This document shows, piece by piece, positions 507-45,446 of a stretch of 45,446 nucleotides of DNA. Below the pieces are notes generated by a model. That model saw nothing but the letters and a program-made list of their open reading frames with translations. It was not told where the DNA came from and made no database searches. This DNA is from a virus. Both the position numbers and the translations under genes were made by a program. The stretch spans positions 1 through 45,446 of IMG/VR virus record IMGVR_UViG_3300044908_000046. One strand, given 5' to 3'. Each line of letters opens with the position of its first letter. Position 1 is the stretch's first letter.

Positions 507-713
507 TCACAGCTTTCCGTCTAGCGCAATAGCGGCGTTTGCGGTAAAAACCGCCTCGCGCAAGAGCCGGATCGCCGCGGTCTGGTCCGCGCAATTTGGC
601 GTATTATCAACTATGCACTGGCCCATTTCTTTTGCTTTGGCGCGGATTGCTTCGTACTTCGGAAGCTGCTCTGCGCTTGGTGCGTGATAAGTAAATATGT
701 TGTTGATGTCCAC
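507..713 (-). CDS. Acb2/Tad1-type anti-defence protein (cyclic nucleotide sponge)
   Basis: A 68-aa protein starting at GTG 713, placed 4 bases after a strong AAAGGAGG site. The sequence has the Acb2/Tad1 helical-hairpin pattern. It opens with FTYHAP, then a conserved Gln and Tyr-Glu-x-Ile-Arg-x-Lys-Ala-Lys helix, a central P-N-C segment, a helix with repeated Ala/Leu, and the closing ANAAIA motif. Known members (T4 vs.4/Acb2, Tad1) bind cyclic oligonucleotides or gcADPR signals and so block CBASS or Thoeris. The frame is open to an ATG at 806, giving a 99-aa form with a basic extension, but the ribosome site favours the short form. Ligand specificity cannot be judged. The gene sits directly upstream of the initiator gene in the early operon. 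Confidence 0.75.
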   Translation of the reverse strand: MDINNIFTYHAPSAEQLPKYEAIRAKAKEMGQCIVDNTPNCADQTAAIRLLREAVFTANAAIALDGKL

Positions 714-2857: not shown

Positions 2858-3152
2858 GTTCTGCCTTCCATGCCGCTATTTCGTCATTGCTCCAATGCCG
2901 CAGACAGGTCACCAGATACAGCCCAAAGAGCGTAGGGTTCTCATCGAGCACCCGCAGAATGCGCTCACGTTCGGCATGAAACTCCGCAAAAGTTTGCTCA
3001 TCGGCTGCAAAGGTGATCCTCTTGCGCTTCTCGACATTGGCAATCCGTTTCCTTGCCTCTCTGCGCGGCAATTTAAAGACTACCGGTTCGTCGTCCGCCA
3101 GATGGTCGTTCAGCCATGCCCATCGTGCTTTGACTTCGGCCCAACGCGGCAT
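2847..3152 (-). CDS. Hypothetical basic protein
   Basis: A 101-aa basic helical protein (MPRWAEVKARWAWLNDHL at the N-terminus, then an Arg/Lys-rich stretch and a Glu-rich helix). The start at ATG 3152 overlaps the upstream HNH stop as TGATG and follows GAGGTGGGG. Function unknown. Confidence 0.6.
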   Translation of the reverse strand: MPRWAEVKARWAWLNDHLADDEPVVFKLPRREARKRIANVEKRKRITFAADEQTFAEFHAERERILRVLDENPTLFGLYLVTCLRHWSNDEIAAWKAEHET

Positions 3153-3511
3153 CAACCCCACCTCGCCCGTGCGCCAAGACGCCCTATTTTCCCAAGATAT
3201 TTTATGGGGTCGCCTTCGATTGCCCGGCGCCTGTTCTCCCAGATCGAAACAATTTCCAAGTGCTCAGGATTAACGCACATTTTATTGCTACACAGATGGT
3301 CGACGGTCATACCTTTTGGGATTTCCTTGTGCATGGCATATGAAAACCTATGCGGGTAAACGTGCTTCCACTTGCCGTCGACTTTTATGGCGAATCCTCC
3401 ATACTCATTACGTTTACAGCCAGTCCACAACCAGCAAGTCGGAGTCTTTTGGACTTGCGCCCAAAACCGGACCTCAGCAGTAGCTACTTTAGAAAGCCTA
3501 GGCAATCTCAA
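3152..3511 (-). CDS. HNH endonuclease (homing type)
   Basis: A 119-aa protein with the HNH_3-like pattern. It has CWLWTG near residue 26, a Tyr/His-rich strand (HRFSYAMH), and then the core VDHLCSNKMCVNPEHLEIVS, with catalytic His of the DH pair and the downstream N-P-x-H. It ends in a basic tail. These free-standing endonucleases cut DNA at an unoccupied site and spread with their gene. The likely start is TTG 3511, overlapping the end of the ERF gene by 14 bases. Its insertion between the recombination gene and the next early gene is typical of a homing intruder. A close relative lies at 42885-43367. Confidence 0.85.
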   Translation of the reverse strand: MRLPRLSKVATAEVRFWAQVQKTPTCWLWTGCKRNEYGGFAIKVDGKWKHVYPHRFSYAMHKEIPKGMTVDHLCSNKMCVNPEHLEIVSIWENRRRAIEGDPIKYLGKIGRLGARARWG

Positions 3512-4373
3512 TCTCCATGCGCTCGCACAGAGTCTTGAAGTCGGCTAGGAACTCCGGCGCAAACTGATAGTACGAGCCATTGCCAAGCTTCGATGGCTTC
3601 TTTTTTGCGTCCACATCCCGCAGGAAGTCGCACACCTTGTTGTCGGCTAGGTACCCATTCACAGCTATATCGCTATTGGGCATAATCTTGATGAAGACAA
3701 TCCGGCGCGCGTCCTGGGATGTGGTTTCCTGCGCATTAGCGCGCATCTCAGCGACTTTCTGCTCGCCAACGGCCTTGGCAGCCACCTTGCCGCGTTCCTT
3801 GGCCGATTTGGCGTCTTCTTTGCTATCCTGCTCGGGATCGTCGCCTGTAGGTATCAGGAAAGCCTTCATCAGCATGTATTTCTCGCTGCCGGTAAAAGCT
3901 TTGTAAAAGCCCTTATCCACGTTATCTTCGCCGACGCCATGCACCACGATGGTCTTTTCCTCGCCAGACTCGCCGTCGGCAAAGGTCCACTCCACCTCAA
4001 TTTCCGTCAGCTGCGTCTTGCGCACAACTTGAATCGGCTGATTGTTGACCCACTTGGTTGTTTCGACTTCGAGCGGCGAGCGCACAACCTTGGTGACGTT
4101 CGGAAAGATGAACAGATGCCGCGAAGCCAGTTCCTTGCGGATGGCATCGGCCAGGTCGGCCTCGGTCACGTAGTCGTACTTGTGGAACTCGTTTCTGCCG
4201 CGCTTGGCAACACGCTCGACCGCGGCCATGACTTCGCAGAGTTTTTGCACCAATGTTTTTGGTTTCGGCTCATCTGCCGGCGTGGCCGCACGCTTGGCAA
4301 TCTCGTCTCTAACCTCTTTGCGATTCGAAAACCGGTGTTCGCCATCGCTAGGAATGACCATTTGTTCGCTCAC
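3498..4373 (-). CDS. ERF-family single-strand annealing recombinase
   Basis: A 291-aa protein matching the ERF superfamily in its N-terminal domain. The helix VQKLCEVMAAVERVAKRG near residues 42-60 is followed by Y-x-Y-V-T-E-A-D-L. The signature GVGEDNVDKGFYKAFTGSEKY and PTGDDPEQ lie at about residues 146-182. ERF proteins (P22 Erf, Sak) anneal complementary single strands in recombination-dependent replication and repair. The Ala/Lys-rich linker (about 185-215) leads to a C-terminal domain I do not recognise. It starts at GTG 4373 in a GTGA overlap with the upstream gene. Confidence 0.85.
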   Translation of the reverse strand: MSEQMVIPSDGEHRFSNRKEVRDEIAKRAATPADEPKPKTLVQKLCEVMAAVERVAKRGRNEFHKYDYVTEADLADAIRKELASRHLFIFPNVTKVVRSPLEVETTKWVNNQPIQVVRKTQLTEIEVEWTFADGESGEEKTIVVHGVGEDNVDKGFYKAFTGSEKYMLMKAFLIPTGDDPEQDSKEDAKSAKERGKVAAKAVGEQKVAEMRANAQETTSQDARRIVFIKIMPNSDIAVNGYLADNKVCDFLRDVDAKKKPSKLGNGSYYQFAPEFLADFKTLCERMEIEIA

Positions 4374-12089: not shown

Positions 12090-12387
12090 GCGAGGATTCC
12101 TGAGAACGCTTGTTGGCGGAATTGCTGTTGGCGCAGCTGTGCGCACTTGGCCGTTCAGGGTTTACAGTTTCCCGCCAGTTCCGGATCGCATCGATCAGGT
12201 GGACCTGAAATATTGGGGCGTCGATTGGGGCTCCGGCGTATCGTCAACCGTTTGGTATGTGCATCAAAGTCAAGCCGCAGCATGGAAGGATTTGGGTGGC
12301 ATAGCCTATTACACACCGGAATTGGGCACTCAATCTCGCTCGTTCACCTTATCCAGGACGATTATCTGCCAAACACTGAAGAGTTAG
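12082..12387 (+). CDS. Tat-signal protein upstream of the portal gene
   Basis: A 101-aa protein. The N-terminus MDRRGFLRTLVGGIAVGAA has the twin-arginine pattern (RRGFL) plus a short hydrophobic stretch, the hallmark of Tat export. The mature part is beta-rich (QVDLKYWGVDWGSG, then VWYVHQSQAAAWKDLGG). It overlaps the previous stop and the portal start. A folded, exported phage protein made with the head genes is unusual. Function unknown. Confidence 0.6.
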   Translation: MDRRGFLRTLVGGIAVGAAVRTWPFRVYSFPPVPDRIDQVDLKYWGVDWGSGVSSTVWYVHQSQAAAWKDLGGIAYYTPELGTQSRSFTLSRTIICQTLKS

Positions 12388-14840
12388 CCGCTAGCCAAGG
12401 ATCGCAAGACCCTGAGCAGCAAGACCAGCAGGAACAGAAGTTCCAGCCGGGAGAACTTTGTTCCGTCGATGCAACCGACAACCGCGTCGAGATCGCTGAC
12501 GATGACGAAGAGGCGGAAGCCAAGCGCACCTGCATCAAGCATCTGTGCTCGCGGGTAGCGCAGCGGGACATGGTGAGCCGCCGCTTGGAAGTCCGGGACG
12601 CCTGGAAAGCGCGCTACTTCTACCGCGGCAACCAGCACTTGCTCGACGGCCCCAAAGGGACTCTCGTAACTCCTTCGATGGTCAGCCTTGGCGGGCAAAG
12701 CTTTGACGACCACAACGACGAAACAAACATCTACTTGGGATTTGGGGACATCCTTGGCGCGGCTCTGACCGCTGCACTGCCTGCTGTCCGGTTCGAGCCC
12801 GAAGATCCGACCAACGCCAGCGACATCTCAGCCAGTGAGAATGCCGAAAAGGCCCGCCAACTGATCGAGCGCAACAACGACATGCTGACGGTCTTGGCCG
12901 ACCTTTCGCGGTATCTCTACACCGATGGACGATGCGTTCTTGAAGCGAGACATGTTCTCGACGGGCAGCGCTTCGGCTATTCGAATCCGGGCGTAACCGA
13001 AGAGCAGGAAGAAGTAGCCTATTTGCCGGAGCAGGGCGAGAATCCCACGCCGCAGGAAAGCGGGCAAGCGGGGACAGGCGTGCCGCGAGGCTCGGAAGTC
13101 ATTACTTGCTACGGAGTGCTCGAATCGAAAGTCGCCGTCCAGTCGAACTGCCTTGCAGACACTTCTTACCTGCAAATCAGCAAAGAGGGCGACATAACGA
13201 AGTTCAAGACGGAGTACCCCGACAAGGCCGATGAAATCAAAGCCGGGCAATCGCCTACGGCGGAATCCGAGTACGAACGTCTGGCCAGAACAGCGATTAT
13301 GATGGGGATGCGGCCATCGGGGCAGAACCGCGACTCGATGGCGCACAACGCCACCAAGCAACGCACCTGGATGCGGCCGGAGTTTTACACCGAAGAGGAA
13401 GACGACGATCTGAGAAACTGGCTGTACCAGGAGTTTCCCAAAGGGCTCATGGCCGTCATGGTTGGCCAGACGCTTTGCGAGCAGCGAAACGAATCCATGG
13501 ACGACCATCTGACGCTGATCCATGCCCGGTCGGGAGACGGCGCGCACCGGCCAGCGCTAGGCAGTCCGGTCATTCCCATCCAGGAGAAGCTGAACGATTG
13601 CGTAGAACTGACGCACGAAAGCTTCATGCACCTGATCCCTCGGGTTTGGGTAGGCTCGGAGATTGATGTTGCGGCGTTGCAGGATGCGGAGCGCCGACCA
13701 GGGCAGTACTTGAAGGCTCCGAAAGTCACCGGCAAAGGCACCGCCGACCTGTTTTTCACCGAGCAGCAAATCGAAATTGCTCAAGGCATGATTCAGTACA
13801 TGCAATGGCTGTTTGGCGAAGCTCCGCAATTCCTTTGTGGAGGAAGCCCAGCTCTTTTTGGCGGAGACACGCAAGGCAACAACACGCTTGGAGGAATCAC
13901 CATTCAGCGCGACCAGGCGCTCGGGCGAGTGGGACTGACCTGGCGGAACATCCGCGGCGGCTATGCCAATCTGATTCGCCAAGCGGTGCAAGCTGCAGCC
14001 ACGTACCGCGAAGAGACCATGACTGGAACCGTTCCAGGCCAAGGCAAGCAGATGCAAAAGCTGGCCATCGACCCGAACGACCTCAAAGGGAACATCAGGT
14101 GCTTCCCCGACCAGGACGACAATTTCCCCGAGAGCTGGGTAGCGAAACGCGCAGTCTGGAACAACGTGATCGGCATGGCGGCAAAGAATCCTCTGCTGGC
14201 CAAAGTCTTGAGCACCGCGCGCAACATGATGCTGGCCAAGGACAAAGCCGGCCTGCCGGAAATGGTCATTCCTGGAGCGGACTCCAGCGAAAAGCAGATG
14301 GGCGAGATTCAGATTCTCTTGCAATCGGCCCCGGATCCCAATCCCGCCCTACAGCAAGCCCAGCAAAAGATTCAGCAAGCGGCCATCGAGGCTCAGCAGA
14401 AGGGAATTCCCATTCCACCCGAAGCAGCGCAGCAGGCCCAGCAGCAACTCGCACAAATCCCGCAAGTCATTTCCACGGTAAAACTCGGCAAGCTTGACGA
14501 TCACGCCGGGGAGATGAATGAAATCGAAACGTGGGCGAGATCGAGCGACGGAATCCGAGCGGCAGCGGAGCAGCCCGAAGGCTATGAAAACGTGATGACG
14601 CACTACGACGAGCACGCCGCGGCGCTCAAGGCTCAGCAGGCAGGCAACCAACCGCAAGGCAAGCCGCCCAGCGATTCCTTGACTGTAAATTTCAAAGACC
14701 TCCCGATTGATGGTAAAGTCCAAGCCGCCGGGAAGGTTGGCATCCAACTCGATGCTGGTAAAATGCAAGCCGAAGAGCAGCAGGAAGACGCCAAGGAATT
14801 GGCGGTTAAAGCAGCGCAAAAACCGCCGATGATTCAATGA
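12366..14840 (+). CDS. Portal protein
   Basis: A large protein of about 824 aa between TerL and scaffold, which is where a portal is expected. It has an acidic, Gln-rich N-terminus, a central body (DAWKARYFYRGNQHLLDG, later a long helical region with ITIQRDQALGRVGLTWRNI) and a Gln-rich helical C-terminus (QQAQQKIQQAAIEAQQKG) like podoviral portals. The start is uncertain. No ATG or GTG occurs between 12147 and 12570 in a sensible place. CTG 12366, after AGGA, gives PNTEELAASQ. ATG 12570 would remove 68 residues. The dodecameric portal forms the DNA channel. Confidence 0.75.
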   Translation: MPNTEELAASQGSQDPEQQDQQEQKFQPGELCSVDATDNRVEIADDDEEAEAKRTCIKHLCSRVAQRDMVSRRLEVRDAWKARYFYRGNQHLLDGPKGTLVTPSMVSLGGQSFDDHNDETNIYLGFGDILGAALTAALPAVRFEPEDPTNASDISASENAEKARQLIERNNDMLTVLADLSRYLYTDGRCVLEARHVLDGQRFGYSNPGVTEEQEEVAYLPEQGENPTPQESGQAGTGVPRGSEVITCYGVLESKVAVQSNCLADTSYLQISKEGDITKFKTEYPDKADEIKAGQSPTAESEYERLARTAIMMGMRPSGQNRDSMAHNATKQRTWMRPEFYTEEEDDDLRNWLYQEFPKGLMAVMVGQTLCEQRNESMDDHLTLIHARSGDGAHRPALGSPVIPIQEKLNDCVELTHESFMHLIPRVWVGSEIDVAALQDAERRPGQYLKAPKVTGKGTADLFFTEQQIEIAQGMIQYMQWLFGEAPQFLCGGSPALFGGDTQGNNTLGGITIQRDQALGRVGLTWRNIRGGYANLIRQAVQAAATYREETMTGTVPGQGKQMQKLAIDPNDLKGNIRCFPDQDDNFPESWVAKRAVWNNVIGMAAKNPLLAKVLSTARNMMLAKDKAGLPEMVIPGADSSEKQMGEIQILLQSAPDPNPALQQAQQKIQQAAIEAQQKGIPIPPEAAQQAQQQLAQIPQVISTVKLGKLDDHAGEMNEIETWARSSDGIRAAAEQPEGYENVMTHYDEHAAALKAQQAGNQPQGKPPSDSLTVNFKDLPIDGKVQAAGKVGIQLDAGKMQAEEQQEDAKELAVKAAQKPPMIQ

Positions 14841-22556: not shown

Positions 22557-25500
22557 ATGAACAACGCAAGCGGTGCTTCCGATGTCGCGCTAACTGTATG
22601 GGGTGGTGCGATTCCAGAGATGGATCCGGCAGATTTGCCGGAGGGTGGAAGTCCGCAAAATCAGGACGTAGATTACTCCGTCGGGCGCGTCTTCACGCGC
22701 GGCGGCACGCTCGGGCAATTTGTTTTTGCGGGATTGTACAGCGAAAAGATTGCAGGCTACGCGCAATCCCTGCCGGGGCCGTCCACACCCAACGAAGCTC
22801 CGTGGAACTCGCCCACCAACGCCACGCTCGGAATTCCCGGAACCTACGCCAACGTCACGTTAAACGGAACTAACACAACGCCAAGCCTCGTGCAGTACGC
22901 GCAAGGCAGCGCTGCACCGATTACCGTAAACCACGAAACCGACAGCCCAACCATCCAGAACGTTACGACTGGCGCATTCCTTGAGCCGGGCTTGGTGAAA
23001 GGCAACACGCTGTTTGTTTTCCCGGTCATCACATCGGCATCGCAGCCCATCGGGAATATCATCTTTCCCATCAGCGGAATCACCGATAATTCAGGAAACA
23101 CCTACATCCCCATGGGCACGCCGGCGGGATTTGGCGTTGCAGGTCCGGCAATAGATTGGTGCCAGCCGTTCTATTGCGTGCTGAACCAGACCGTCAATAA
23201 CCTGACGATTAACTACACCTACATTATCGGTCAGCAGACCTACGTAACCGCAGTGACGAGTTACTTTTCGGCTGTCGGCGGGCTTGGCGCGGTCGATGTT
23301 CCGTTCACGGTAGCGCAAGGAACTGCCGCGGGGGCAGGCGCAATCGCTTCACCCAGTTTCACCACAACAAACCCGAGCGACGTGCTGATTGGCTTTTCGA
23401 TCTCTGCCGCTGGCGTAGGGCTTGGCCCGAGCTGGACCAGCCTTGTCTCGGCGGTAGGTGAATATCTGGCCGTCACCGCCGTAGGAACCTACAGCGCTGC
23501 AGCGACGGTCGGCGGGGCAGGGGCATGGTTCTGCTGGGGCGGAGCTTTCAAGGCGCAAGCGCTTTGCAGCATCACGTTCACAAATCCCGTCGCCAAGGGA
23601 AGCATTGTCGTTGCCGAGCTTTTCAGCCAAGGGCCGGGAATCTCTCCGGTTTGCAATGATTCGCAAGGGAATGAGTATCAGCTTGCCGTTTCGAACACTT
23701 CAAACGTCAACGGGCAGCAGGCATTCATGTTCTACACCGTCAATCCTGTTTCGGCTGGGACGCTGACCGTTTTAATCACTTGGAATGGCGCATTTACGCT
23801 GTATGGATTGATTCACGAAGTCGCTGGCGTCACGGTTCTCGATCAGGTCAGCTCCAACGCCCAGAACAGCGCGAGCGTAGCGGCGCCAACTCTCACTATT
23901 GGGCAGAATGAGTTTTGTATCGGCGCGGCCTCGACGCAATTCTCCGCCACGGTTTCAGGGGCATTTGCCGCCATCCAGAACATCACCGGAAACTATTCGT
24001 CGTCATTCCTTATCAGCGCAGGGCCGACGGTCCAAGCGACCTGGACGCAGACCAGCGGCGGCTGGGTTGCGCTGATGGCGACGTTTCGCTCGGGAACTTC
24101 GTCTCCCAACCGCTCGCAGATACTTGCCTCTTCCAATTTCCCTTTCACGATCCCCGCAACGGAATCCGTTCTTGGCTTGCAGGTCGAAGTTTTCGGGCAT
24201 CAATCGACGCTGTCGCCGGACGCCATTCTGACCGCTCAGATTCTCTTGCCCAATGGAACGCTTTCGCCTAAAACCGTGGCTTTCCAACTGACTCTGGCCG
24301 ACACGGAGTTTGTCGCCGGAGTTACAAGCTTCTCCTGGGCGATTCCGCTGACTCCGGCACTGCTCGACAATCCAACCTTCACCGTCAATCTCGTAGCTAC
24401 AGCCTTGGGCGGTGAAGTAGCCAGCTTCTTTATCTATGCCGTGAAACTCAAGGCTTGGCTGTCTCCTGCGCCCGCCTCGAACATAAATTGGATCAAGACG
24501 TATGAGCAGACAGACGGCGAGATAGATACTCTCCTGCTCGACGCGAACGGCCTCTTGTGGGATGAGAATGTCACTGCAAATCCAGGAGTTTTGAACAATA
24601 TTTCAACAGCCATCCAGCCGGGCAGTTACGCCAAGTCAGTGACTTTCGATGACGTGGAATACATCGGCATATCGAATCTGATTAACGGCACCGACGTTCC
24701 AAGGCTGTGGAACGGGCAATGGCTCGACAGGGTTTCGCAGGTCGGCCCGGGCGCTCCGCCGTCGGTGACCACGACAAGTTCCGGCAGTGCTGTACTCACG
24801 ATCACGCAAAATGCAGCAACAGCTCTGCCAACCGGAGCGCACGACTGGCTATTGGTCAGTGCCGCTCCATCGGCTACCGGGACGTTCAGCGCTCCGGCAA
24901 CTCCCGGAAACGTGATGACGATTATCGTTCATGCCGCTTTCGTTCCGCCAACTACGGGAAGCCCTCTTGCTCCAGTCTATAAAGTAGGAACCAACATCCA
25001 GATTCTAGGGTTTCCATCCATCGCTGGAAACAATGTCAACAACGATCCCGCAGGCGTCTTCAATCCGGCCTATTACACCATCACCAGCGTTGGCTCGACC
25101 GTTGCAGGCCAGCAAAGCTATGACTGGATCACCTTTCAGGTTCCGTTTACGGCCTACTACAACGCGCTGACTCCCGGCGGCTGCACGATCCAATCGACGC
25201 TTGCGACGCTGACCGCGGCAGTGCAGGTTCCGTTCCTTGAAGTCGGCAACCAGATGACCGTTACCGGAGCGGGCACGGCGGGCTACGACAACACGTTTGT
25301 GGTGGCAGCCACGCCCAACGCCGCGCAGTTGCAAATCACGCAAACCAGCCTGACAGCCAACGTCGCCAACTACGTCTTTACCATCATCACCGGAGTTGCG
25401 CCTGTTTTGGGCCAATTTGCCACGGTGACAGGAACTCTCAATGGCAACGGGATCTTCAACGTATCGAATGCCGTAATCACTTCTGCCAGTCCGACCAGTT

Positions 25501-27740
25501 TCTCCGTGTCTCTGGTTTCTTCATCGAACATTTCGCCGGCTGCTGAGACAGGAACGGGAATCATTTCTGGAACCATCTTCCAGTTCGATCCCGCCGGCAC
25601 AGTGACCAATCCAATCCTGGGCAATTCCACCGGAGGACTGGTTTCGACAACCGGCGTGATGGGCGTCGGTACAAGGCAATGCGTCGTTATCTTCCAAACC
25701 AGGAATGGAGCACTGACCGCTCCGTCGCCTTTTGTGCAGTTCACCATCACGGCCTCGGCTGGAGCCATTGTCGTTTCGAACATTCCCATCGGCCCGCCAA
25801 ACGTTACCGCGCGCATTCTTGCGTTTACCGGGGCGAATGGCGGCAATTTCTTCTGGATTCCCGAGCCTGTGCAGGTGACAACCAACGGCCAGCTTATCAC
25901 CTACCCGGCGACGCTCATCAATGACAATATCACCACGCAGGTGACGCTGTCGTTTCCCGATGCGGTTCTCTTGGCAGGCGATGCCATCGACGTAGCGGGA
26001 AACAATCTTTTCGAACAGGCCGAACTTGGCTCTTGTGTAGGCTTTCTCAGTTACTCCGACCGGCTGATAGCCTGGCAGGAACAGAACAAAATCCAGAACT
26101 TGCTCAATCTTTCCTTTGATGGCGGCATAGGCGTTCTCTCTAGCGCCGTGCAGGGAACCACAACGACTTATCCGCTGGGCTGGACGGTTGACCCGATCAA
26201 TGGCGGAGGAATCTCGCTGATTGTCTCGCCCATCTTCGGCAGCGCGTTCTACATCAAGAATGCAACAGGCGTTTCACAAGCCATCTACGGAATGATCGAG
26301 CAGCCAGCCTATCAGGACATCTATCAGGTTCCGATTGTCACAACCAACACGCAATACTCGATTCGCGTGACGGCCTGCTGCCCTTCGGGAGTCACGCTCG
26401 GCAACTTGGTCATGGATATTTACAGCCCGAAGCTCGGAACCACGTTCGGAATCTTTTCCGTGCCGCTTGCGAGCATGACAACGACCATGCAGATTTTTAC
26501 CGGAACTCTTGTTACGACGGCATTCACTACCGTACCGCTTGATTTGGAGTTCAGAGTCTATGCCACAAATCTCCCGAACGGCGGAGATGTGGAAGTGGAT
26601 CGCGTCGAGCCTTTTCCCACGGCAGAGCCTTCCTTTGCGACTTCCTTCACCGCCAGCTACGCGGACAATCCCGAAGCATTCGATTTGGTGACCGGGCACT
26701 TCGGGCCGTCGCAGAATCAGCAGCCGATTCGGGGCGGCATGGTTCTCTTCGACACTTTATACGCGCTGAAAACAAAATCTTGGTACTCGACCAGCGACAC
26801 CGGGAATTCGGAGCCTGCTTTCTGGAATTGGCGGGAAGTTTCGAACAAAATCGGAACTATCGGCAGTCACTCCTATGACTACGGGGAGGACTGGGCGTTT
26901 TCAGCGTGCCGCGCGGGAGTCTACTTTTTTTCTGGTTCTGAACCACTTAAAGTTTCTCAGGAAATTGCGCCTGTTTGGGATCTCATCAACTGGCCTGCCG
27001 CGCAAAGCATCTGGCTGCGCAACGATCCTGAGCAACGAAGGCTTTATGTTGGCGTTCCCATCGCTACGCCAAATATTTACATGCCGCAGTTCCCAATCAA
27101 CGCAAATCCGCAGACGCCAAACGTCATTTTGATGATGAACTACCGCGAACTCAACTCGGGAATGGCCATCGCCGACACTGCGCCTATCAGAAGTTCCTTT
27201 TCCGGCAGACTACTCGCACCGGAACCCGCTAGGAAGTGGTCATTCTGGAACTTGCAGAGCCCGTATGCTGATTTTTGCGACAGAGCCAACAATCAGACGC
27301 CGCTTTTCCTTTGCAATGGCGTCGGAAACTCAAAGGTCTACGCATTCTCACCGACAGAACTTGATGACGACGGGTTACCGATAAATTCATACTACGTATC
27401 GTTCGGCATGGTTAAAGCAGACCAGCAAGATGCGAAGGGCCTTGGACTTAGACGCATGTTGCTTGGATACCTAAGTATTTTGGCGGAAGGTGCCGGGAAT
27501 TTGAATGTCAGCGTGTATGTCCAATCGCCACAGAATCTCCCATTTCTTCTAGGGTCCATTCCTCTTAGCCAATTTACGCTCGGCGACTTAGAAGTTGCAG
27601 CGAATTTAACCGGGGACCGTTTTTTCATTTGTGTGGGGACGAATGCGGTCGGCTCAAGCTTTTCATTATCGAAAATTGTGGCATCTCTTCAAAAAGATGC
27701 GTGGTCCCCTCTGCGCGGATTGGCAACGGCGAATCCCTGA
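22557..27740 (+). CDS. Giant tail nozzle-like protein with large beta-domain insertion
   Basis: A 1727-aa protein. The first ~45 residues (WGGAIPEMDPADLPEGGSPQ, then GRVFTRGGTLGQF) and the region from about residue 1370 (RGGMVLFDTLYALKTKSWY, GTIGSHSYDYGEDWAFS) resemble the two ends of podoviral tail nozzle (tail tubular B or P22 gp10-like) proteins, which normally have 500-900 residues. The 1300 residues between are Ser/Thr/Gly/Val-rich beta sandwiches with several repeated Ig-like units. It probably forms the tail tip and may carry adhesion domains in place of separate fibres. Confidence 0.6.
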   Translation: MNNASGASDVALTVWGGAIPEMDPADLPEGGSPQNQDVDYSVGRVFTRGGTLGQFVFAGLYSEKIAGYAQSLPGPSTPNEAPWNSPTNATLGIPGTYANVTLNGTNTTPSLVQYAQGSAAPITVNHETDSPTIQNVTTGAFLEPGLVKGNTLFVFPVITSASQPIGNIIFPISGITDNSGNTYIPMGTPAGFGVAGPAIDWCQPFYCVLNQTVNNLTINYTYIIGQQTYVTAVTSYFSAVGGLGAVDVPFTVAQGTAAGAGAIASPSFTTTNPSDVLIGFSISAAGVGLGPSWTSLVSAVGEYLAVTAVGTYSAAATVGGAGAWFCWGGAFKAQALCSITFTNPVAKGSIVVAELFSQGPGISPVCNDSQGNEYQLAVSNTSNVNGQQAFMFYTVNPVSAGTLTVLITWNGAFTLYGLIHEVAGVTVLDQVSSNAQNSASVAAPTLTIGQNEFCIGAASTQFSATVSGAFAAIQNITGNYSSSFLISAGPTVQATWTQTSGGWVALMATFRSGTSSPNRSQILASSNFPFTIPATESVLGLQVEVFGHQSTLSPDAILTAQILLPNGTLSPKTVAFQLTLADTEFVAGVTSFSWAIPLTPALLDNPTFTVNLVATALGGEVASFFIYAVKLKAWLSPAPASNINWIKTYEQTDGEIDTLLLDANGLLWDENVTANPGVLNNISTAIQPGSYAKSVTFDDVEYIGISNLINGTDVPRLWNGQWLDRVSQVGPGAPPSVTTTSSGSAVLTITQNAATALPTGAHDWLLVSAAPSATGTFSAPATPGNVMTIIVHAAFVPPTTGSPLAPVYKVGTNIQILGFPSIAGNNVNNDPAGVFNPAYYTITSVGSTVAGQQSYDWITFQVPFTAYYNALTPGGCTIQSTLATLTAAVQVPFLEVGNQMTVTGAGTAGYDNTFVVAATPNAAQLQITQTSLTANVANYVFTIITGVAPVLGQFATVTGTLNGNGIFNVSNAVITSASPTSFSVSLVSSSNISPAAETGTGIISGTIFQFDPAGTVTNPILGNSTGGLVSTTGVMGVGTRQCVVIFQTRNGALTAPSPFVQFTITASAGAIVVSNIPIGPPNVTARILAFTGANGGNFFWIPEPVQVTTNGQLITYPATLINDNITTQVTLSFPDAVLLAGDAIDVAGNNLFEQAELGSCVGFLSYSDRLIAWQEQNKIQNLLNLSFDGGIGVLSSAVQGTTTTYPLGWTVDPINGGGISLIVSPIFGSAFYIKNATGVSQAIYGMIEQPAYQDIYQVPIVTTNTQYSIRVTACCPSGVTLGNLVMDIYSPKLGTTFGIFSVPLASMTTTMQIFTGTLVTTAFTTVPLDLEFRVYATNLPNGGDVEVDRVEPFPTAEPSFATSFTASYADNPEAFDLVTGHFGPSQNQQPIRGGMVLFDTLYALKTKSWYSTSDTGNSEPAFWNWREVSNKIGTIGSHSYDYGEDWAFSACRAGVYFFSGSEPLKVSQEIAPVWDLINWPAAQSIWLRNDPEQRRLYVGVPIATPNIYMPQFPINANPQTPNVILMMNYRELNSGMAIADTAPIRSSFSGRLLAPEPARKWSFWNLQSPYADFCDRANNQTPLFLCNGVGNSKVYAFSPTELDDDGLPINSYYVSFGMVKADQQDAKGLGLRRMLLGYLSILAEGAGNLNVSVYVQSPQNLPFLLGSIPLSQFTLGDLEVAANLTGDRFFICVGTNAVGSSFSLSKIVASLQKDAWSPLRGLATANP

Positions 27741-32912: not shown

Positions 32913-32995
32913 GGACCGAGTCTCGCAGGAACGTCGATTCCTAGAAATAGACGACTGGTACCCTTTTGAACAGTACCTTTGGCAGCCGAGAAGTA

Positions 32996-33547
32996 CTATT
33001 TGAAATTCTGAAAAGCAAACTCGCCATGCAACTCCTTCGCAGCCTTGTCGTAAGCCTTGGCCGCCTCTTCGGGGGTAGGGAAATTTCCAAGGATGAATCT
33101 TTTCCCATTACAGCGAATCGCCGCTCGCCAGCCAGTTTTAAGTCCGTAGAAAGAAACGCCCTTGAAACCAGAAGTATTGGTAGAACACAGTCCAGCGTTT
33201 TGAGCATTCTGCGCCGTTGTGGACTTCCGAAGGTTCTGCCTGCGGTTGTCGAGCGAGTCTCCGTTGATGTGATCCGCAAACTCTCTATTTTTACACCCAA
33301 GGATAACGCGATGCATCCAAACGTGAAACTGTCTTGGCCCAACACCGGAAAAGTTAGTCATCGCTCGCACGGCGTAGAATTGGCGACACCCGTGCCGCGT
33401 CCGGGAATGAGCGTGCCAAGCGAATTGCATGAGCCAGTCGTAGTCGGAAGCGTCAACGATGGTAACTTTTCCTTTGGTGAGAGGAATTACTTTATACTCT
33501 TTGTTGAATGGCTGAGTAATCTCGCGTCTGAATACGCGGGCTGGCAT
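32996..33547 (-). CDS. HNH-AP2 homing endonuclease
   Basis: A 183-aa protein. The N-terminal two-thirds is an HNH domain (FHVWMHRVILGCKNREFADHINGDSLDNRRQN-type core; Asp-His and Asn residues in place). The last third is an AP2 DNA-binding domain (SGFKGVSFYGLKTGW, RFILGNFPTPEEAAKAYDKAAKE). ATG 33547 follows GAAGGAGG. It lies antisense, directly beside the SGNH gene start. This type moves by cutting an uninterrupted allele. Paralogous to 35545-36075. Confidence 0.85.
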   Translation of the reverse strand: MPARVFRREITQPFNKEYKVIPLTKGKVTIVDASDYDWLMQFAWHAHSRTRHGCRQFYAVRAMTNFSGVGPRQFHVWMHRVILGCKNREFADHINGDSLDNRRQNLRKSTTAQNAQNAGLCSTNTSGFKGVSFYGLKTGWRAAIRCNGKRFILGNFPTPEEAAKAYDKAAKELHGEFAFQNFK

Positions 33548-33568
33548 AGACCCTCCTTCAAAGGGCGT

Positions 33569-35551
33569 GTGCTACTCAGCCATTTTGCCATACTTTCTCT
33601 TCTTTGTCTGTCATTACCAATTAGTACCTTAACTCAAAATCCGCCTGGCGGTTACGGACCAGGCCAGAGCGGCGGGGGCGGCTCCAGCACAACCTCCGTT
33701 TCCGCTATTCCGGGCTTTCCTGGCGTTACCTCCGTGCCGATTACTTCCGGCTTGATAGCGGAGTACCGGATGCTGCCCACAGAGTCTCCTGCCGCGCTGG
33801 TGGACTATTCAGGCAACGGCAACAACGCCACTGGAACGGCGGGTGTGGCTCCGACAATCATCCCTGTTACTGGCGGCATTTCCTGCCCAGGCACCGGGGG
33901 AGTTGTCCTGCCTGCGGGACTCAATTCCGCGCTGACTATCATCGCTTTCATCGGCTATCAGTTGCCATCGGTCAGCACAGACAGCGCCATACTCAGCGGG
34001 AGCACCTTTAACATCGCCTTCGACCTAAATTCTGGAGGGGGCGCTCCGATCCTTGGACAAGGGATTCTCCGCACAGTTAAGCCTGGCTTAGCTGTCACTC
34101 AGGCTTATGCCAGCGCACTGGGCACGAATGTCGTTGCGGTCACAATGGGCACAACCGATGTTCTCTATCTCAATGGCGTGGCAGTGCCGGATTACACTAC
34201 CGGGCCGGGAACGTCCGCGGGGCTTCAGTCCTCGGGGGCATGGCAAATCTGCGGTGCCGGTGCTCTCTACTACACCGGGCAAATCTACTACATGGCTCTT
34301 TACAACCGCGCGCTGACTGCGGCGGAGATTGCCGGAGATTCGAAGTTCATACTCAGCGCGATGGCGAATCGTAACGTTCCGCAATCCTTGCAATCGAGCG
34401 TAGTAGGCAACACCTACACCTGCGTCGGAGATTCCATCACAGTGGTTAACGGCGCTCCGCTGTCCTGGTGCAACAACATGCCGGGGATGACCAATGGCTC
34501 TTGGACAACCTTCAACTTCGGCCTAGCAGGAAGGACCTCGCAATCGGAATCCACGGCGGCAAAAATCGACAACGACTTGTACATGCGGCAGCCTGCCAAC
34601 GGACGCTCGGTCATCAACATCTTTGAAGGCATCAACGACTTTGCCACGCCAAAAACCGGGACACAGATTATCGAGTACCTGATGAACTGGTGCCGTGGCA
34701 GGAAAAACTCCGGGTATGACCGGGTTTTCATGGTTTCCATGATTAGCAACACGCTATACGATGCCGGGAAGGATGTGCTAGACCCTCTTGAGCGCCAATA
34801 CTGGCGTGGCTGCTTCGATGGTTTCACGGACTTAGGCGGCACGCTCGGGCTAGGAGCCGACGGGCAAAGCGCTACAGGATTCTTTCAGGGCGATCATATT
34901 CACCCCACACAGCAATCCGTTCTGAACATCATGGCTCCGTTGATTCAGCGCACGTTCAATGACTTGTACGCAGCGCAGGATTTCTCAACCGGGAACACCT
35001 ATACGACCACAGCCACCGTTCCAGCGACGATCACCGCGGCCACTGAATCAACCAACACGATGACGTTTACCGTGGCGAATACGTTCTCTCCAGGCCAGTG
35101 CGCCATTGTTACGGGTGTCACCCCGGCAGGCTATAACAGCACGGCGGGAAACCTGACCATGGGATGCTGGTTTATTTTGACGGCGAGCAGTTCGGCATTT
35201 ACCGCATACAACGGAACAACCGGACTGGGGGCGGGGACCATCTTCGGCACAGCGGTAGTTCCTCAAGAATTGGATGTGGATGTGTATGCGACTCTCGGCG
35301 GTTCAGCGGTAACTCCGATCCACACGCTACAGACATGCCAAGGGAGAACCGGGCAGCCCATCTATCGACGCATCACCAATTCGACAAGCCCGTGGACAAT
35401 CACACCTTTTCTATCGACGGAAACAATAGATGGCGGCGCTACATTCACAGCACCGCTCGCCACATCTACTAACTGGCCAATCGTCAAGCTGGAGTCTGTT
35501 CTTGTGAGCGCGGCGGCAGCAGGTTGCACCTGGAAGGCTTCGACTCAATGA
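33569..35551 (+). CDS. Secreted LamG-SGNH hydrolase
   Basis: A 660-aa protein. GTG 33569, after AAAGGG, begins a Sec signal (LLSHFAILSLLCLSLP) followed by a Gly-rich linker. About residues 70-270 form a LamG/concanavalin-like sandwich (LIAEYRMLP, VDYSGNGNNATG). An SGNH esterase follows, with GDS near 287-289 (block I), NFGLAG (block II), GIND near 353 (block III) and D-H-x-H near 442-445 (block V). The C-terminal ~190 residues are beta-rich. It probably removes acyl groups from surface sugars. Signal peptide on a phage enzyme is notable. Confidence 0.75.
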   Translation: MLLSHFAILSLLCLSLPISTLTQNPPGGYGPGQSGGGGSSTTSVSAIPGFPGVTSVPITSGLIAEYRMLPTESPAALVDYSGNGNNATGTAGVAPTIIPVTGGISCPGTGGVVLPAGLNSALTIIAFIGYQLPSVSTDSAILSGSTFNIAFDLNSGGGAPILGQGILRTVKPGLAVTQAYASALGTNVVAVTMGTTDVLYLNGVAVPDYTTGPGTSAGLQSSGAWQICGAGALYYTGQIYYMALYNRALTAAEIAGDSKFILSAMANRNVPQSLQSSVVGNTYTCVGDSITVVNGAPLSWCNNMPGMTNGSWTTFNFGLAGRTSQSESTAAKIDNDLYMRQPANGRSVINIFEGINDFATPKTGTQIIEYLMNWCRGRKNSGYDRVFMVSMISNTLYDAGKDVLDPLERQYWRGCFDGFTDLGGTLGLGADGQSATGFFQGDHIHPTQQSVLNIMAPLIQRTFNDLYAAQDFSTGNTYTTTATVPATITAATESTNTMTFTVANTFSPGQCAIVTGVTPAGYNSTAGNLTMGCWFILTASSSAFTAYNGTTGLGAGTIFGTAVVPQELDVDVYATLGGSAVTPIHTLQTCQGRTGQPIYRRITNSTSPWTITPFLSTETIDGGATFTAPLATSTNWPIVKLESVLVSAAAAGCTWKASTQ

Positions 35552-36075
35552 TTTATTTGAGCAAATTTGTGGTGATGAACTTTTGCGGCTTCATCGTAGG
35601 CGTGCGCAGCCTCTTCTTTTGTCGCAAAATCTCCCAGCCAAATGCGCTTGCCAGAAACGCATATGGAAGCGGCCCATCTTTTGTGTCCACTCTGAGGAAA
35701 TATCCCCTTGAAACCACTTCTGTTCCTGCGGAGCATTCTTCTGTTTGTGCAATTTTCTTGATGCGTGCACAAACGAAGATTACTCTTTCGATTGTTGAGG
35801 CCGTCGAAGTCTTTGTGGTCAACTTCTTGTTTTTTATTGGCGCGAAGTATTTCTCGGTGCATTCTTATTTCTTTGCGCGGTTGGCCATAATTCCTAGGGG
35901 CGCTGCGGACCGCGTAGGATGTGTATGCGTAACAATGGACTTTCCAATTCCATTTCGAGAGCCACTCAAAATCTTCGGCGTCAACGGTGGCATTTTGTCC
36001 CATCGTAAGCGGAATAAAACGGTAGGATGGATCGAGCGGCTGGACAACCTCGTGTCTCTTCACGGGGCGTTTCAT
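35545..36075 (-). CDS. HNH-AP2 homing endonuclease, second copy
   Basis: A 176-aa protein with the same layout as 32996-33547. It has an HNH core (EIRMHREILRANKKQEVDH, DGLNNRKSNLRLC), then an AP2 domain (SGFKGIFPQSGHKRW, RIWLGDFATKEEAAHAYDEAAK). It starts at ATG 36075 behind GTGAGGTG and ends seven bases inside the SGNH gene's stop, antisense. With the other copy it encloses the hydrolase gene. Confidence 0.85.
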   Translation of the reverse strand: MKRPVKRHEVVQPLDPSYRFIPLTMGQNATVDAEDFEWLSKWNWKVHCYAYTSYAVRSAPRNYGQPRKEIRMHREILRANKKQEVDHKDFDGLNNRKSNLRLCTHQENCTNRRMLRRNRSGFKGIFPQSGHKRWAASICVSGKRIWLGDFATKEEAAHAYDEAAKVHHHKFAQINH

Positions 36076-42664: not shown

Positions 42665-42888
42665 CCCGCCCTCCAGCCTACACAGCCGCCGCTAGGATGC
42701 GATTCCTGATGGTCCCCGGCGTGGCCATGCGGCAAATTGCAAGTAAAGCCGCCCTTTTCGGCTCCGCAAAGCCCCCGCGGCGGCAGGAAGGCTAGAATGT
42801 CTACGTGGAAATTTCTCTCCAAAATTAACAAGGCCTCTGTGGGCACGCGCGCCAAGTTCTCTCTTAAATCTAAGTTGCTTCGGCTCAT
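42661..42888 (-). CDS. Small C-x-H-x-H motif protein
   Basis: A 75-aa protein. ATG 42888 overlaps the HNH stop as ATGA. The C-terminus LCGAEKGGFTCNLPHGHAGDHQ...GGCVGW matches the terminal motif of 40308-40952 and a small Cys/His pattern common in phages. Probably metal-binding. Confidence 0.6.
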   Translation of the reverse strand: MSRSNLDLRENLARVPTEALLILERNFHVDILAFLPPRGLCGAEKGGFTCNLPHGHAGDHQESHPSGGCVGWRAG

Positions 42889-43367
42889 GTATTTTGGCCC
42901 CATGACTTTCTTTGGCGCAGAACGTTGCAAATCTTACAATACCTGCCGCCCCTCTTTCCGGGAGGCCGATACGTATTCTCTGGCGTAAAAGCGTGGCCGT
43001 GTTTGCACTGCGTTTTCTTTGCGTTTAATGCTGTAACACTCGTACCTCGCAGGATATTCTCTTTACTGGTGACAGGCTCTAAATGGGCGGGATTCACGCA
43101 CGCCCGGTTGCGGCAGAGATGGTCCAGCGTTAGACCATCCGGTATCGGGCCAACGGTCAGTTCCCAGCAAATTCTAGCGGCTTTACAATAGTGAGTCTTA
43201 TCCCGCCGAAACATCCCATATCCTTGGGTTGTACCTGATAGCCAAGCCCAGCAAGGTCCAAGATCGGGGCGGTACTGTGGAATTTGCCCGTTCTTATCCA
43301 CTTTCGGCCAAAACCGTGTCTCCAAAGGGATGCTTATAAATTTGCCGTTACTTCCGAATGCCCGCAC
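42885..43367 (-). CDS. HNH endonuclease
   Basis: A 160-aa protein. N-terminal strands (FWPKVDKNGQ, CWAWLSGTTQGYG) precede the HNH core LTLDHLCRNRACVNPAHLEPVTSKEN. A terminal zinc site (CKHGHAFTPENTY, YCKICN) is also present. GTG 43367 follows GAGAGGAGG. It shows the same core as the enzyme at 3152-3511, so both may descend from one family that spread within this genome. Confidence 0.85.
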   Translation of the reverse strand: MRAFGSNGKFISIPLETRFWPKVDKNGQIPQYRPDLGPCWAWLSGTTQGYGMFRRDKTHYCKAARICWELTVGPIPDGLTLDHLCRNRACVNPAHLEPVTSKENILRGTSVTALNAKKTQCKHGHAFTPENTYRPPGKRGGRYCKICNVLRQRKSWGQNT

Positions 43368-43719
43368 GGACCCTCCTCTCTGCCTTGTCGCTCCGAATCA
43401 TCAAATGCCGGGCGTGGTGGCATCGGCGGCAACTCGCCAGCGTGCCATCTTCCGTATCACAGCCTCCCTGGCCAAGGGAAGGCTCGTGGTGCAGTTCCAT
43501 GGTCTCCCAGGCGATGTTTCGCTGGCAGCGGCCTCCCAGGACGCCCCGCAGGCGCATCTCACAGCATCCCCGGCTCCGCTCAAAGACCTTTTGGCGCAGG
43601 GCCGCCATATCCAGGCCAAACAGGAACGTTTTGCCCCGCCTGACATAGGAACGGGGGTCGGCGAAGCGCGCCGCGGCGGTGGCTTCCCGGTCGATGATCT
43701 GTGGGTGCTTGCGTTTCAC
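43348..43719 (-). CDS. HNH endonuclease
   Basis: A 123-aa protein of a different HNH branch, RQKVFERSRGCCEMRL, then CQRNIAWETMELHHEP, then TLASCRRCHHARH. The zinc Cys pairs and the HH catalytic centre are visible. This type also appears as a packaging-linked nuclease, but here it is in the early operon. GTG 43719 overlaps the upstream stop as GTGA. Confidence 0.75.
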   Translation of the reverse strand: MKRKHPQIIDREATAAARFADPRSYVRRGKTFLFGLDMAALRQKVFERSRGCCEMRLRGVLGGRCQRNIAWETMELHHEPSLGQGGCDTEDGTLASCRRCHHARHLMIRSDKAERRVRAGIRK

Positions 43720-44033
43720 AGCCACTCCTTGAGCCAAGCCTTGGCACGCCCTGTTTTCACGTCGTTGGTCGAGAATCTCAAAAGTCTGTACCCCATCATT
43801 GTGGCTGTGTTGGCCTTCTCATTGTCCGATCCGTAGCCTTTGCCATGTTTCCCCGCGTGATAGCCGTCCACTTCGATGGCCAGGCTGGTAAAGACCTCGG
43901 GCCGGTCGCAGAGAAGGAAGTCGAACCGCCATTTACGCTTTTCATCGAAGCGGTACTCCGTCACATACTCAATCCCGAGCTCGGTCAAGAACTTGGCCAT
44001 GAGGATCTGCCCGACGTTAGGGCCGCGCTTCAT
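43716..44033 (-). CDS. PD-(D/E)XK-type nuclease (DUF559-like)
   Basis: A 105-aa protein. A helix (GQILMAKFLTELGIEYVTEY) leads to a strand WRFDFLLC (the PD-type Asp), then AIEVDGYHA (the E-x-D/K-type strand), YGSDNEKANTATMMGYRLLRF and the terminal NDV. This resembles very-short-patch/DUF559 endonucleases or phage resolvase-like nucleases. ATG 44033 overlaps the upstream stop as ATGA. It could process recombination intermediates with the ERF protein. Confidence 0.7.
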   Translation of the reverse strand: MKRGPNVGQILMAKFLTELGIEYVTEYRFDEKRKWRFDFLLCDRPEVFTSLAIEVDGYHAGKHGKGYGSDNEKANTATMMGYRLLRFSTNDVKTGRAKAWLKEWL

Positions 44034-44206
44034 GGCTTCTCGGCCCGCTTCCGCTCCGCCTCGCATGCCGGGCACTTCTTTTCTCCGCCAATATCCAGCA
44101 TGGCTCGGAAGTGCTTGGCGCAGTACGCCCGAGTCGCCGCTTGTTTGTTCGTCGGCGTTAGCGCCTCTGCGCTGTCCTGATGGGCTGGCCAGTGCTTATC
44201 GCTCAT
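44030..44206 (-). CDS. Small 58-aa Cys-pair protein
   Basis: ATG 44206, after GGGAGAG, begins a helical protein (SAEALTPTNKQAATRAYC) ending in CPACEAERKRAEK, a C-x2-C pair with a charged tail. It is coupled to the nuclease gene by an ATGA overlap. Function unknown. Confidence 0.6.
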   Translation of the reverse strand: MSDKHWPAHQDSAEALTPTNKQAATRAYCAKHFRAMLDIGGEKKCPACEAERKRAEKP

Positions 44207-45128: not shown

Positions 45129-45446
45129 GGTATATGCTCGTCCTCGTAAACCCTCTCGCCGGTCGAAGGCGAAATCAAAAACCGCTGGCCAGCATCGTCT
45201 CTCTGCCATGCTCGGTCGTTCCACGCGTCGGCTCTTTCTCTTACGATTTTGATTCTTTCCTCGTATGGAAGATGGGAAATAGAAAGCGCCGAAGGCGCGG
45301 ACGTTTCTTTTATTTCAATTCTTTCTAAGGACCTTTTGGGTGCAATAGCTATTGCGTCACCAGCATCAAAATCTTGCGTCATGGGTGTCGGATTTTGCGT
45401 CACCGGAGCGGAATCTTGCGTCACTGGCTTTTCTTCGTCACGCAAA
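45125..45446 (-). CDS. Replication initiator-like protein, C-terminal part (continues at bases 396-1)
   Basis: C-terminal part of the junction-crossing initiator gene, ending in TGA at 45125-45127. Bases 45320-45446 duplicate 1-127. The unique part, 45125-45319, encodes a charged tail rich in Arg, Glu and Asp. It includes a probable helix (YEERIKIVRERADAW) and a short stretch (RFLISPSTGERVY) near the end. In lambda O the C-terminal domain contacts the helicase loader. Whether that applies here cannot be seen. The stop overlaps a TTG start for the next leftward gene. Confidence 0.75.
   Translation of the reverse strand, partial: LRDEEKPVTQDSAPVTQNPTPMTQDFDAGDAIAIAPKRSLERIEIKETSAPSALSISHLPYEERIKIVRERADAWNDRAWQRDDAGQRFLISPSTGERVYEDEHIP
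45320..45446. repeat. Direct terminal repeat, right copy (circular-contig overlap)
   Basis: Exact copy of bases 1-127. Iterons and gene segments within it should be counted once only. See the left copy for interpretation. Confidence 0.95.

Follow-up and report, generated by a model that had tools for sequence, protein, structure and literature searches.

The window, by which we mean the whole 45,446-base soil phage genome analyzed here, encodes a tiny protein of a known counter-defence family. In other phages, Acb2 sponges take up the cyclic-nucleotide signals through which bacteria bring about the death of infected cells. A gene on the minus strand at 507-713, beginning with GTG, specifies a 68-aa protein of the Acb2/Tad1 hairpin type, and we read it as a minimal Acb2-type sponge for cyclic oligonucleotides, with a probability of about 0.82. 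The Acb2 of Pseudomonas phages is a hexameric sponge that takes up cyclic di- and trinucleotides (PMC12043709). The protein described here is predicted to fold as a two-helix hairpin, would probably form a hexamer like the Acb2 proteins of known structure, and, judging from its family, would bind cyclic oligonucleotides that act as second messengers and leave them intact. Free signal would then be lowered during infection, and CBASS effectors, or those of another defence that works by cyclic-nucleotide signalling, would stay inactive.

Minus-strand translation of 507-713 gives VDINNIFTYHAPSAEQLPKYEAIRAKAKEMGQCIVDNTPNCADQTAAIRLLREAVFTANAAIALDGKL* (68 aa). Immediately 5' of the GTG, at 714-725 on the same strand, the Shine-Dalgarno region AAAGGAGGACGA can be read from the sequence, and it is a strong ribosome-binding site. 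An ORF finder reports a 99-aa version (507-806). This version was rejected as the gene because AAAGGAGGACGA precedes the GTG and because four close relatives (L008, L010, L011 and L012), which differ upstream, have no in-frame start 5' of it. When a profile derived solely from five distant phage relatives was searched against 1020 six-frame segments of the window, the 68-aa ORF was the sole match (E = 1.6e-26); of 5000 shuffled versions of the protein, not one scored with the same profile, and the ORF is far above chance. Between the window and the relative L006 there were 19 synonymous and 4 other changes (pS 0.42, pN 0.026), and dN/dS was 0.04-0.14 in those of the window's pairs with close relatives in which synonymous sites are unsaturated. 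Since synonymous changes far outnumber the others in close relatives, the gene is under selection, and among these relatives the purifying selection is strong.

A sequence-only reading of this DNA had assigned the product to the Acb2/Tad1 family, and this call was borne out by a Pfam score above cut-off, by profile matches to an Acb2 homolog and to the T4 group, and by structure search. Sequence and structure-search evidence combined, membership is secure. The protein scored 44.6 bits (E = 1.7e-11) with PF24729.2, the Pfam model of the Acb2/Tad1 hairpin domain, whose curated cut-off is 27 bits, and the match spanned positions 1-57 of the 58 in the profile. The model matched the genome at this one place (507-713), gave no match in 14 control genomes, and was matched by all 26 aligned relatives. 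T4 Vs.4 (Acb2) matches PF24729 at 7e-20 and also matches, at 7e-4, phrog_1454, the PHROG to which the 68-aa protein itself belongs (E = 1.3e-16). Against the PDB, the best match of the 26-relative profile was "Acb2 homolog 43" (9ptq), a modest match (E = 0.0037) that came only from the broader alignment A1, which includes phages of other hosts; T4 Vs.4 (7uq2) followed lower down (E = 0.9), and the tighter alignment A2 found no Acb2 match in the PDB. Aligning the relatives with T4-type Acb2 proteins by hhalign gave E = 7e-5 and a probability of 63%, with Y9 paired with Y8 of T4. No PADLOC or NCBIfam model matches the 68-aa protein. Designed four-helix proteins and oxidoreductases, returned by a single-sequence phmmer search of the PDB (E 0.02-1.6), were rejected as composition matches.

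The sequence-only reading had also staked its proposal on a structural match to the hairpin, and such a match was obtained. AlphaFold2, supplied with 20 relatives, modelled two long antiparallel helices, as is characteristic of the family, at residues 17-37 and 42-63 (pLDDT 88.7). A model made without an alignment was poor (pLDDT 61) and was discarded. The second helix is encoded at 525-590 on the minus strand, and its residues D43, R49, R52, E53, A58 and N59 are invariant or near-invariant. In a Foldseek search of viral models, each of the best nine matches was named as an Acb2/Tad1 hairpin protein and had a probability of 1.00; the best E was 1.7e-3. In the PDB, ranks 1-3 were taken by cGAMP-bound chains of T4 Vs.4, with E-values of 1.0-2.4 that are not significant; this result is weak alone because helical hairpins are common.

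T4 Vs.4 thus shares the Pfam family with the 68-aa protein and is its rank-1 structural neighbour in the PDB (7uq2). It differs in its length of 88 aa, in a longer inter-helix loop, and in a C-terminal F82-QPEEKY tail. Acb2 homolog 43 is a solved short homolog, with a 76-residue chain and six chains in the entry, whose sequence identity to the 68-aa protein is low. The founding Acb2 (p26) of Pseudomonas phages (8h2j, 8ixz), which has the GY...K pattern in common with T4 Vs.4, differs in its chains of 92-93 residues and was not reached directly by the profile of the window's relatives.

Next, we considered which branch of the family the protein belongs to, since the sequence-only reading had named both anti-CBASS and anti-Thoeris functions. 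Tad1 (Thoeris anti-defence 1) shares the PF24729 hairpin, and the Pfam model spans the helical part of both proteins; binding of cyclic nucleotides is also known for Tad1 (PMC12043709). On these grounds, a Tad1-type protein that sequesters glycocyclic ADP-ribose was a rival reading. In Tad1, however, an N-terminal beta sheet (beta1-beta4) precedes the two helices, and the gcADPR pocket is formed by conserved loops together with the helices (PMC12043709). According to both the translation and the AlphaFold2 model, the N-terminal beta domain is absent from the 68-aa protein, which is a stand-alone hairpin as in Acb2. In close relatives no in-frame start lies further upstream, and most relatives are 66-76 aa long, the usual length in the clade. 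A hairpin alone, at this clade length, points to an Acb2-type protein, which takes most of the weight from the anti-Thoeris reading; we regard the latter as very improbable. The Acb2 part of the earlier proposal is supported by the hairpin family match, while its Tad1, anti-Thoeris part is not supported, given the missing beta domain.

The residues that would make up a binding site are partly those of T4 Acb2. All three motifs singled out from the sequence are present, FTYHAP at residues 7-12, YEAIRAKAK at 20-28 and ANAAIA at 58-63, although FTYHAP does not lie at the very start of the protein as had been stated. The N-terminal signature, F7-T-Y9-H10-A-P12 ... Y20, is encoded at 654-695 on the minus strand, and unique relatives retain F7 in 82/82, Y9 in 81/82, H10 in 81/82 and P12 in 80/82 cases. 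By hhalign, Y9 corresponds to Tyr8 of T4 Acb2, a ligand contact there, and R24 corresponds to Lys23; R24, too, is kept in 81 of the 82 unique relatives. In Pseudomonas Acb2, Y11 and K26, which we take to be the equivalents of T4 Y8 and K23, are presumably cGAMP contacts. Two other T4 residues, T68 and F82, appear not to be conserved. T68 pairs with R49 (R in 79/82 unique relatives) and F82 with A63 (A in 80/82), in a pairing that is approximate across the hairpin turn, with A63 at the end of a short C-terminus. For T4 Acb2, a role of Y8 is described in two studies (PMC12657218, PMC12657230): binding of dinucleotides is disrupted by Y8A, F82 makes a stacking contact with the ligand (PMC12657218), and the T68M substitution reduces affinity (PMC12657230). 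The pocket role of T68 and F82 is documented for the T4 protein, and is not shown to define the Acb2 family.

Judged by these alignments, the T4-type cyclic-dinucleotide pocket appears partly conserved, with the general site kept and its details changed. With part of the pocket changed, the putative ligand is named here only as a cyclic oligonucleotide. One alternative, which we consider possible though on the unlikely side, is a hairpin-family protein with a shifted ligand, such as a cyclic trinucleotide alone or a signal not yet described. The clade-wide replacement of T68 and F82 by R49 and A63, with the tyrosine and the basic residue remaining, is in its favor, as is the finding that the di- and trinucleotide sites of Acb2 are separate and that ligand range varies among homologs (PMC12043709). 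Against it, the approximate alignment at the hairpin turn leaves room for another residue to stand in for F82. Moreover, a shifted ligand would be a special case of the sponge reading and not a separate function. Given that the tyrosine and the basic residue are kept while R49 and A63 replace the rest of the pocket, the clade may have become specific for another nucleotide alarm signal, perhaps one used by an undescribed soil-bacterial defence system; we offer this as a doubtful, speculative extension.

The position of the gene was examined as well. The window carries an exact 127-base direct terminal repeat (1-127 and 45320-45446), and the genome is therefore probably complete. The repeat join lies inside the gene of a replication initiator, which is consequently split in two when the sequence is read linearly: from a GTG start codon at 396 on the minus strand, its 5' part covers 1-396, and the remainder extends through the terminal repeat as far as 45125. 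It matches PF13730 (HTH_36; E = 2.3e-7) and phrog_1032, "replication initiation protein" (E = 1e-16). The placement of the acb2-like gene one gene upstream of a replication initiator, on the same strand, was thus confirmed. This adjacency makes early synthesis plausible, as would suit the proposed sponge. When the leftward gene cluster was scanned for sigma-70 promoters, 3 sites were found versus 2.8 in shuffles, no excess, and so it is from position that we infer early transcription and the "early operon" status of the gene.

The same adjacency could instead point to a small helical replication protein, a partner of the initiator that does not bind nucleotides. We consider this highly unlikely: the initiator is no conserved neighbour, the flanks being different in the relatives whose surroundings were read, among them L001, L050, L051, L063 and L077, and both family membership and the conserved tyrosine signature favor nucleotide binding. 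A search for a conserved operon context found none. Neighbouring genes differ between phages, and the presence of the gene beside different neighbours in dissimilar phages is as expected for an exchangeable accessory gene.

Relatives of the putative sponge are widespread. A degenerate scan of IMG/VR showed that at least 173 viral contigs encode them, of which 80 were kept, and the named phage records recovered by tblastn numbered 112, the majority from phages of Paenibacillus, Gordonia and Mycobacterium. Relatives also occur on genome contigs of Acidobacteriota, Planctomycetota and others. One Pyrinomonadaceae MAG (G013, the L127 genome) holds two separate Acb2-hairpin genes, on contigs C4 and C52, perhaps in two prophages. 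The closest named phage record by tblastn is the acidobacterial Tunturi_1, a Tunturiibacter phage, whose gp101 (XJP11592.1) is 56% identical to the 68-aa protein over residues 2-65. At 71 aa, gp101 is likewise a short stand-alone hairpin that matches PF24729; it differs in its neighbouring genes, and its record reads "hypothetical protein", not sponge. From this closest named relative, our guess is that the host of the window phage belongs to Acidobacteriota. The family of an Acidicapsa genome that carries a relative was searched as a possible host family, the window's own host not being established, and PF18144 (CBASS nucleotidyltransferase) was above cut-off in 5 of its 150 genomes. So few CBASS nucleotidyltransferases speak against the sponge reading.

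The clade of putative sponges of about 70 residues is common among uncultivated phages and also occurs in one phage isolated from Acidobacteriota. The protein is a clear, unsurprising addition to the known Acb2 sponge family, one that a specialist in phage counter-defence would find expected. It gives a putative function to a short gene labelled only hypothetical in the closest named relative, and it extends the family to phages of little-studied soil bacteria. Such small, well-conserved proteins could be used to probe the nucleotide signals of these hosts.

Several other genes of the window were recorded. The leftward cluster that contains the acb2-like gene also encodes, at 3498-4373 on the minus strand, an ERF-type single-strand annealing protein (PF04404, E = 7.7e-14; phrog_155, E = 4.8e-32). 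Four minus-strand genes of HNH_3 endonuclease type (3152-3511, 42885-43367, 32996-33547 and 35545-36075) resemble mobile insertions of the homing type. The first has an additional match to a homing-endonuclease zinc loop; the last two have an AP2 domain and lie on the strand opposite to the plus-strand structural genes. In the structural region, the plus-strand ORFs 22557-27740 (1727 aa) and 12147-14840 (897 aa) had no PHROG match at 0.001. Within an 861-aa plus-strand ORF at 32966-35551, a Laminin_G_3/concanavalin-like domain was recognised (E = 1.2e-6) along with a weak match to GDSL lipase; the product is possibly a receptor-binding or polysaccharide-modifying tail protein. At 43716-44075 on the minus strand lies a gene for a small DUF559-like, nuclease-like protein (phrog_503, E = 4.9e-24), and ORFs resembling it occur close to the acb2-like gene of both L050 and L053.
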